Below, piece after piece: positions 18,445-23,709 of a stretch of 59,352 nt of DNA. Position numbers and translations under genes: made by a program. The DNA lies in contig JAAEZB010000011.1 of NCBI GenBank assembly GCA_018223085.1, forward strand, positions 1 through 59,352, in the 5' to 3' direction. This DNA comes from Paracoccaceae bacterium (GTDB lineage: Bacteria > Pseudomonadota > Alphaproteobacteria > Rhodobacterales > Rhodobacteraceae). Under the pieces are notes generated by a model. That model worked only from the letters and a program-made list of their open reading frames with translations, searched no databases and was not told the DNA's origin. Position 1 is the stretch's first letter. Each line of letters begins with the position of its first letter.

Positions 18445-22808
<4,364 letters not shown>

Positions 22809-22816
22809 CCGCATTC

Positions 22817-22851
22817 GTTCTTTTTTGTTCGCTAATGTTCTCAAAAAGTTC
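22817..22851 (+). promoter_or_regulatory. LexA-type SOS box with phased GTTC repeats
   Basis: GTTC-N7-GTTC (22837-22840 and 22848-22851) is an exact match to the alphaproteobacterial LexA operator. Two further GTTC copies precede it at 22817 and 22827, so four copies are spaced 10, 10 and 11 bp apart on the same face of the helix. The box starts 29 bases after the recG stop and ends about 67 bases before the start of the small membrane protein at 22919. Confidence 0.68.
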
Positions 22852-22918
22852 TTTACAGGTCGTTAAGGATATGAGAACAAATAAGCAACAAAACAAGATA
22901 TTGAGCAGGAGCCGCCCC

Positions 22919-23041
22919 ATGATGACCCAGATCCGCGCCGTGATCCGCAATTCCCGCGCAACGCTTCTTCAGGATGCGCTTGGGGGGGTGGCCCTTGTCG
23001 TGATGATGCTCGTGGCACTGCATGTGCCCGGTGTGTCCTGA
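22919..23041 (+). CDS. Small single-span membrane protein (40 residues), possibly SOS-controlled
   Basis: A 40-codon frame from ATG 22919 with AGGAG seven bases upstream. The first 19 residues are basic and amphipathic (MMTQIRAVIRNSRATLLQD); residues about 20-38 form one hydrophobic span (ALGGVALVVMMLVALHVPG). The basic N terminus should face the cytoplasm. The LexA-type box upstream and the strong terminator downstream (23203-23238) make this a separate unit after recG. In Caulobacter, SidA is a 29-residue SOS-induced inner-membrane inhibitor of division; this protein has similar size and build, but I see no sequence similarity and the role is only a hypothesis. An internal second ATG (22922) could also be used. 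Confidence 0.65.
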   Translation: MMTQIRAVIRNSRATLLQDALGGVALVVMMLVALHVPGVS

Positions 23042-23202
23042 CCCCAGTTTTCTGCCCGCGAAATCACGCCGGGTGTCGTCGGCTTGTATCCCTGTCCCCA
23101 TTGGATATCGCAAGACGGACACTGCCTGTCTCTCGTCTCGTGAAGGGTGCCTCACTCCCCTTCGGACGATCCCCGGGTCCCACGTGTGATCGCGACTTAC
23201 CT

Positions 23203-23238
23203 CCGCCGCCTTCCTATTGGAAGTGCGGCGGTTTTTTT
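23203..23238 (+). terminator. Intrinsic terminator
   Basis: CCGCCGC plus CTTCC (23203-23214) pairs with GGAAG, one bulged T, and GCGGCGG (23219-23231) over the loop TATT, followed by seven T residues. This is the best terminator in the window. It lies 160 bases after the small SOS-box protein, so that transcript has a long 3' untranslated part, which could include a separate small RNA. Confidence 0.8.
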
Positions 23239-23262
23239 ATCCGCAAGGGGTTAACGATTGGG

Positions 23263-23709
23263 TTAAGCGGCGCTCTCTGCTTGCGCCATGGCTTCGGCGG
23301 TGGCCTCAAGCGCGAGCAGGATCGAGGCGTGCCGGTTGGCGTAATCGCGCGCCGGGCGCAACACTTCGAGACCGTCGAACGGCGCGGGCGGCGTGGGCCC
23401 GTCTTCTTTCAGCATGGTGCGCAGGGCATCGCGGGCGGCTTCGATCTCGGCGCGGGAGCGGCCGATGACATTGCCCCCGACGACAGAGGCGGCCGCCTGG
23501 CCAAGCGCGCAAGCCTTTACGTCCTGACCGAAATCGCGGATGCGACCGTCCTCAAGCGCCACGTCTACGGTCACTGTCGAGCCACAGAGCGGGGCGCGTT
23601 TTTTGACCGTGGCCTGCGGCGCGGAAAGCCGGTCAGTATGCGGAATCTCGGCTGCGAGTGCCAGAATGCGCCCGGAGTAGAGCTTGATAAGGTCGGTTTC
23701 GCCGGACAT
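23263..23709 (-). CDS. IscU/NifU-like iron-sulfur scaffold protein
   Basis: A 148-residue protein resembling the NifU N-terminal (IscU/SufU) fold: LIKLYSGRILALAAEIPH, KRAPLCGSTVTVDVALEDGR and VKACALGQAAASVVG align with the first two cysteine loops. Only these two cysteines (residues 42 and 67) exist. The place of the third ligand reads NRHASILLALEA, with alanine where IscU and SufU have cysteine. The protein may therefore deliver or modulate clusters rather than act as a classical scaffold. It is divergent from hisI with 66 bases between starts, and no other iron-sulfur assembly gene is near. Confidence 0.8.
   Translation of the reverse strand: MSGETDLIKLYSGRILALAAEIPHTDRLSAPQATVKKRAPLCGSTVTVDVALEDGRIRDFGQDVKACALGQAAASVVGGNVIGRSRAEIEAARDALRTMLKEDGPTPPAPFDGLEVLRPARDYANRHASILLALEATAEAMAQAESAA

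Follow-up and report, generated by a model that had tools for sequence, protein, structure and literature searches.

Does the short interval behind recG in a member of the Rhodobacteraceae, a family of abundant marine bacteria, hold a gene that answers to DNA damage? The question arises from an earlier note on a stretch of 59,352 nucleotides (the window, meaning the whole stretch that was analysed), which forms contig 56 in a 3.0-Mb draft genome. The note described a box of the form GTTC-N7-GTTC between recG and the frame of a small membrane protein, and proposed LexA control of this protein and a role analogous to that of SidA from Caulobacter. In established SOS biology, activated RecA and the self-cleavage of LexA derepress the genes that LexA controls. 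According to the consulted parts of PMC12700426, GTTC-N7-GTTC is the LexA motif of the alphaproteobacteria; SidA, in the portion of PMC4211646 covered here, is an SOS-induced division inhibitor of 29 residues that interacts with FtsW. For the Rhodobacteraceae, the parts of the literature covered here, which concern SOS, LexA, and inhibitors of division, name no division or dormancy effector linked to SOS. The analysis presented below argues that the locus is probably a LexA-controlled chromosomal unit, distributed across the Rhodobacteraceae, which comprises an inner-membrane checkpoint peptide and a structured RNA.

A conserved promoter downstream of recG

The upstream neighbour of the locus, recG (20718..22808, plus strand), is recognised by its Pfam RecG wedge, RecG domain 3 C-terminal, and helicase domains. 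Between its stop codon (22808) and the start codon ATG (22919) lie four GTTC half-sites on the plus strand, at 22817, 22827, 22837, and 22848 (22817..22851), in steps of 10, 10, and 11. The last two form the exact GTTC-N7-GTTC of the earlier note, GTTCTCAAAAAGTTC (22837..22851), and the two further copies that it had reported 10 bp apart are indeed present at 22817 and 22827. Immediately after the box comes TTTACA (22852..22857, plus strand), which is probably a -35 element, although a strict promoter scan found no sigma-70 promoter. The ribosome site that had been read before the frame is AGGAG (22907..22911, plus strand).

By pattern frequency alone the box is at chance level: the window contains one exact GTTC-N7-GTTC against 1.45 expected, and the whole genome contains 65, against 94 for a reversed control pattern. 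It is significant beyond chance because it is conserved. Of 54 loci collected by protein similarity (25 from the genus together with the best-scoring 29 of 123 matching genomes from other genera), 53 have the exact box, L020 being the exception, and none of 863 control stretches contains it; these controls were 170 nt long, came from the same loci, and were searched on the same strand only. Conservation extends beyond the box itself. The triple GTTC-N6-GTTC-N7-GTTC, whose additional half-site stands 10 bp before the 11-bp box (22827-22851 in the window), is kept in 52 of the 54 loci, TTTAC follows the box in 49, and a second operator of the form GAAC-N7-(C/G)AAC is found in 53. An RNA hairpin pairing TGTTCTC with GAGAACA was considered and rejected, since distant relatives alter one arm (to GTTCTT) and leave the other unchanged.

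The 10-bp (N6) half-site spacing does not fit a LexA dimer. Together with the retention of the 10/11-bp GTTC steps in 52 of 54 loci, it would suit a repressor or activator other than LexA that reads the phased GTTC array, the likeness to LexA sites then being partial. How probable such a regulator is can be judged from a comparison with known operators.

Two LexA-type operators

A LexA matrix was built from the lexA (24/24) and recA (24/24) operators of the genus and from the operators of a dinB-like gene (IMS family) and mmcB in the window's own genome. When all positions of the window were scored on both strands, the first rank went to a site that the earlier note had missed, GAACAAATAAGCAAC (GAAC-N7-CAAC, minus strand, 22875..22889; TTTGTTGCTTATTTGTTCTCA with flanks), which scores 21.5 bits versus 13.4 for the runner-up. 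The box at 22837-22851 ranks sixth, with 12.6 bits, and lacks the T that known operators have before the second GTTC. What stands of the original claim is that LexA-type operators lie in this promoter; the box on which it was founded is not the stronger of them. On the same matrix, the genome's own lexA operator scores 23.5 and its own recA operator 28.2. With one gene left out at a time, the known operators of the omitted gene score 12.4-17.8 bits on average (range 4.7-26.2), and the second operator of the unit scores 18.2-22.2, above the average of each held-out gene, although some single recA operators are higher (up to 26.2). Its distal half reads CAAC where GAAC is expected.

This pattern is general. 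The best of about 6,200 positions falls in the promoter of the unit in 29 of 30 loci and the second-best in L020; in other genera the best LexA-matrix position does so in 29 of 29 loci (the best 29 of 123). The two sets share five genomes, and any site within about 140-150 nt before the start was counted: the top promoter site is the upstream, plus-strand one in 4/30 and 4/29, and in L265 its register is shifted.

The lexA and recA promoters of the genus are built alike, with an upstream GTTC and a downstream GAAC direct repeat at a near-equal distance. From the last GTTC to GAAC there are 27 nt in 51 of 54 unit loci, and GTTC precedes the known operator by 26-28 nt in lexA (24/24) and by 28-29 nt in recA (24/24). 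The unit differs from them in its extra GTTC 10 bp upstream and in the CAAC of the downstream box. All 24 lexA promoters have TTGACA, and the TTTACA of the unit lies about 1 nt further downstream; one of the 24 reads TGTTCTCAAAAAGTTTTGACA, which is close to the TGTTCTCAAAAAGTTCTTTACA of the unit.

That a non-LexA regulator acts here is quite improbable on this comparison. It would account for a first box that scores below true operators, but not for a second operator near the score of lexA's own (21.5 versus 23.5), for GTTC at the same distance before the operators of lexA and recA, or for the position of the best matrix hit in every one of the 29 loci from other genera (best 29 of 123). Taken together, the sequence comparisons lead us to conclude that the promoter of the unit has two LexA-type operators, the second of which would lie at about the -10 or start region. 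LexA control of the unit is well supported in silico, because box and frame are conserved and the second operator is ranked first by the LexA matrix.

Other LexA-related features were also noted. The GTTC that precedes the lexA and recA operators (L039-L062, L067-L090) may belong to a second LexA site. In the window's own genome, a LexA-like box, GTTCCACCTATGTTC, lies close before an autoinducer synthase (Pfam Autoind_synth; L113, C66, about 20119), a hint that SOS and quorum sensing may be connected; further such boxes precede a radical-SAM protein (GTTCACTATATGTTC; L108, C60) and a rhodanese-domain protein (GTTCATGATTTGTTC; L123, C83). A second, weak match to the LexA DNA-binding domain (21.6-23.4 bits) is seen in 4 of 24 genus genomes (L063-L066).

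The 40-residue protein

The frame (22919..23041, plus strand) codes for MMTQIRAVIRNSRATLLQDALGGVALVVMMLVALHVPGVS, a protein of 40 residues with one predicted membrane span. The earlier note had named noncoding-like substitution as one way in which its reading could fail; pN/pS is 0.27 over 300 pairs of 25 genus sequences, and the frame evolves as a protein. Among the same 25 sequences, differences by codon position number 2808/990/5647, a third-position bias, and the length is exactly 40 residues in every one. Residues S12, T15, L16, D19, G22, L34, and P37 are invariant in 18 sequences. The peptide has a short, mildly basic N terminus, a single predicted span, and a conserved L-x-x-P at its end; over 115 sequences the best 17-residue hydropathy mean is 2.36, and the mean net charge of the N-terminal part is only +0.37. 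By eye, the four Paracoccus examined have a shorter version, of 31-36 residues. For the window's peptide, Pfam and NCBIfam returned 0 families at E<=5. Plasmid and phage collections held no match to it at E<=0.01, so there is no sign of a mobile origin.

Distribution and genomic context

Every one of the 25 genus genomes, the window's own included, has the frame, and so do 8 of the 11 other genera; a single additional match, from a different family (E 0.04), was taken as chance. Within the family, at E<=0.05, it is present in 123 of 149 genera. Of 196 genomes sampled from the order, each with a completeness of at least 85%, 174 have it at E<=0.001 (the ones listed all belong to one family); this bears out the description of a conserved small gene beside recG for a protein with a predicted span. 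Among 289 genomes of the class, 6 match at E<=0.01, namely 4 Rhodobacteraceae and 2 weak, partial matches. The check proposed in the earlier note, a comparison of frame and box across the Rhodobacterales, thus found both conserved.

A degenerate two-box pattern searched over 84,980 species genomes gave at least 117 promoter loci, whose record titles name Rhodobacteraceae genera or MAGs assigned to the family, order, or class. Among the matches listed, the two-box promoter is seen only with this unit. In every one of the 114 listed promoter loci that have 200 nt or more of downstream sequence, the frame profile matches, also where the RNA described below has no match; the E-values relate to a small candidate set. 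A RecG C-terminus lies upstream in 114 of the 117 listed loci (median 31 nt, at most 545 nt) and in 28 of the 29 protein-found loci from other genera, where it was not found in L289. L186 and L214, in which no RecG was found, have less than 75 nt of upstream sequence each; in L216 (Loktanella), a HolC-like frame, named by eye, stands upstream in place of recG. Because the L216 unit sits away from recG, promoter, frame, and RNA travel together. The order of operators, frame, RNA, and terminator, nearly always after recG, is conserved.

A structured RNA behind the frame

The earlier note had also missed a conserved structured RNA on the 3' side of the frame (23042..23238, plus strand, terminator included), whose copy in the window has a fold z of -3.7. 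A closing stem (23058-23080 with 23167-23193) surrounds three hairpins on the plus strand: hairpin A (23086..23108), with CUGUCCC (23092) in its loop, hairpin B (23114..23130), with CUGCCU (23122), and hairpin C (23145..23158), with UGCCUC. The RNA ends in an intrinsic terminator, CCGCCGCCTTCC..GTGCGGCGG-T7 (23203..23238, plus strand), which is helix 8, with 99.3% of cells paired in the genus; a simple terminator scan did not list it.

RNAalifold, applied to a MAFFT alignment of 25 genus sequences that was not fitted to structure (5 of 30 loci, from other genera, were left out), gave 40 pairs, of which 18 show compensatory change. These values are reached in none of 500 shuffles, and the paired cells fall from 95.8% to 38-47% when the partner is shifted by 1 to 3 columns. 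Within the genus, hairpin C is the weakest helix (83.3% of cells paired), and in hairpin B two of the three pairs are invariant and two-sided changes are absent from all three. In 82 wider sequences, chosen by E<=1e-10 and aligned with a fit to the structure, which leans the result towards it, compensatory changes are found in 35 of the 40 pairs, the covariation score is 0.48 versus 0.14 in shuffles, and 0/500 shuffles reach any of five measures.

All 29 protein-found loci (the best 29 of 123) have a covariance-model match where the frame ends, the weakest with 24 bits; one match is short and one overlaps the end of the frame. Where at least 450 nt lie downstream, 102 of 109 listed promoter loci have a match, with scores from 19.6 bits. 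Of 104 matches in the promoter loci listed, 103 stand 90-330 nt behind the promoter motif and on its strand, the exception being L150, at 425 nt. A further match, in L259, lies at 102 nt; terminator-only matches (L192) and matches on the other strand were left out of these counts. The 7 of 109 listed loci without a full match are four Paracoccus, L192, L211, and L213, which keep shorter 3' stretches with CTGCC repeats, as seen by eye. The unit can do without the RNA, since the match is missing in these 7, all four Paracoccus among them. Whole-genome searches of seven genomes gave one strong copy in each, and two of the seven also have additional weak matches at 22-24 bits. When the 289 class genomes were searched with stricter filters, 4 scored at least 76 bits, all from the window's family; hits outside the family, in 14/289, score 22-32 bits and were taken as chance. 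No Rfam 15 covariance model matches at E<=5 over 22700-23350.

One short motif recurs in the unpaired stretches. CTGYC stands at the 5' end in 75 of the 82 sequences (as CTGCCT in 65). Loop A has GTCCC in 56, loop B CTGYC in 59, and loop C TGYC in 55. The count of CTGYCY per 3' region is 3.1, versus 0.37 in mononucleotide shuffles (96 usable of 117 listed loci).

These data bear on what the RNA is for. It could be no more than an extended 3' untranslated region with a protective effect on the mRNA, leaving the peptide as the sole product, and Paracoccus, which keeps promoter and peptide where the RNA model fails to match, would fit such a tail. We consider this a real possibility that falls well short of probable, since a stability element needs no conserved loop sequences, such as those found here (CTGCCT 65/82, GTCCC in loop A 56/82), and the unmatched loci retain their CTGCC repeats. 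At the other extreme, the RNA might be the main product and the frame incidental or a translated leader. The covariation, stronger than a simple tail requires, points that way; purifying selection on the protein, its length of 40 in 25/25 genus sequences, and the match of the frame profile to 114/114 listed promoter loci, RNA-less ones too, make it very improbable.

Candidate partners of the RNA were examined and rejected. As a cis antitoxin it fails, its pairing with the ribosome-site region of the frame being equal to that of shuffles (mean z 0.06, 25 genomes). The recA mRNA, as a target of the CUGCCUG loop, shows an excess in the genus that fades to near-shuffle level elsewhere: complementarity of the recA leader averages 8.8 nt versus 7.2 in shuffles in 24 genus genomes, and 7.6 versus 7.1 in other genera, where AGGCA is found in 3 of 27 leaders (27 of 29 genomes, two with split rows being dropped). 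The lexA leader shows no excess of complementarity to the RNA loops in 24 genomes (7.0 versus 7.0). As a separate observation, the recA leader after the operator (L067-L090, L294-L320) contains a recurring stretch, ATTGCCGCC, in most rows across genera, which is perhaps a 5' mRNA element.

Relation to known systems

In general build, the level at which the two were compared, the unit resembles SidA, a tiny alphaproteobacterial inner-membrane protein under GTTC-N7-GTTC LexA control. The peptide of the unit likewise appears to combine a tiny single-span protein with LexA control, the latter predicted in silico. It is longer than SidA, has a structured RNA behind it, lies beside recG, and, among the 289 class genomes, is seen only in Rhodobacteraceae apart from the 2 weak, partial matches. 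Of the known proteins, SidA is the closest to it in class of function, and membership of that class is not claimed.

In the consulted portion of PMC8309996, TisB and DinQ, with 29 and 27 residues, are inner-membrane peptides that LexA controls and whose RNA partners are antitoxins, and the TisB/IstR-1 and DinQ/AgrB pairs of E. coli resemble the unit in joining a LexA-controlled membrane peptide to an RNA component. In the unit, by contrast, frame and RNA share a strand, the RNA lying downstream, and pairing with the ribosome-site region of the frame is not detectable. The likeness in size class, single span, and predicted control raises the possibility of an SOS toxin of this kind, one that depolarises the membrane and leads to dormancy and is no regulator of the divisome. 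We hold this to be unlikely. The same-strand downstream RNA, the only candidate antitoxin examined, pairs no better than shuffles; there is one strong copy of the RNA per genome in the seven genomes searched whole; the peptide has no plasmid or phage match at E<=0.01; and its N-terminal charge averages only +0.37 (115 sequences).

The CcsR, or cuckoo, RNAs of Rhodobacter also follow a small-protein gene, and form hairpins with conserved pyrimidine-rich loops and the motif CCUCC. The loops of the unit read CUGYCY instead, the small protein has no Pfam match, and the RNA has no Rfam match.

No paper in the literature covered is recognisable as a description of the unit. Among the LexA sites predicted for Dinoroseobacter shibae, the covered part of PMC6473078 mentions no recG-linked small gene. 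In the parts consulted of the others, PMC4344238 mentions LexA solely in a table on E. coli, PMC5107571, on Paracoccus sRNAs, contains no recG, PMC8632094, on structured RNAs of Rhodobacterales, has none in its main text, and the unit was not recognised in PMC2864571.

A proposed damage-response unit

The preferred reading is that of a LexA-controlled unit of peptide and RNA, in which promoter boxes, frame, and RNA fold are conserved; its LexA binding, induction, co-transcription, and two functions are what we infer. As the similarity of the operators suggests, LexA dimers on two operators that flank and overlap the promoter would hold the unit off, and, in keeping with established SOS biology, activated RecA would lead to LexA self-cleavage and turn it on. 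A single transcript would then carry the 40-residue peptide, the structured RNA of roughly 190 nt, and the intrinsic terminator; co-transcription of frame and RNA is suggested by the fact that no terminator is evident between them.

The peptide would insert in the inner membrane, where it is most likely a damage-checkpoint effector that acts on a membrane partner. That it acts on septal wall synthesis or septation, as SidA does, is a first guess by analogy and is somewhat unlikely to be right; an action on membrane potential is a guess that we consider less likely still. For the RNA, there is a substantial chance, a little short of even, that it persists as a stable 3' fragment and presents its CUGYCY loops in trans to a partner RNA or protein. 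A tentative extension, which we think could be true without calling it probable, is that the transcript is a dual-function LexA-controlled RNA, encoding a checkpoint peptide and carrying CUGYCY loops that titrate a protein or silence mRNAs.

With its LexA-like control, a 40-residue membrane peptide, and a conserved folded RNA, the unit may therefore act as a damage-response switch that has gone unrecognised. The locus also illustrates that a very small gene, and an RNA with it, can be overlooked beside a well-known repair gene. If the dual-function reading is true, the unit would be a new SOS arm common to most Rhodobacteraceae. With its wide distribution in the order, its LexA-type operators, a peptide under purifying selection, and a fold that Rfam lacks, it opens a missing piece of the damage response in this family to direct testing.
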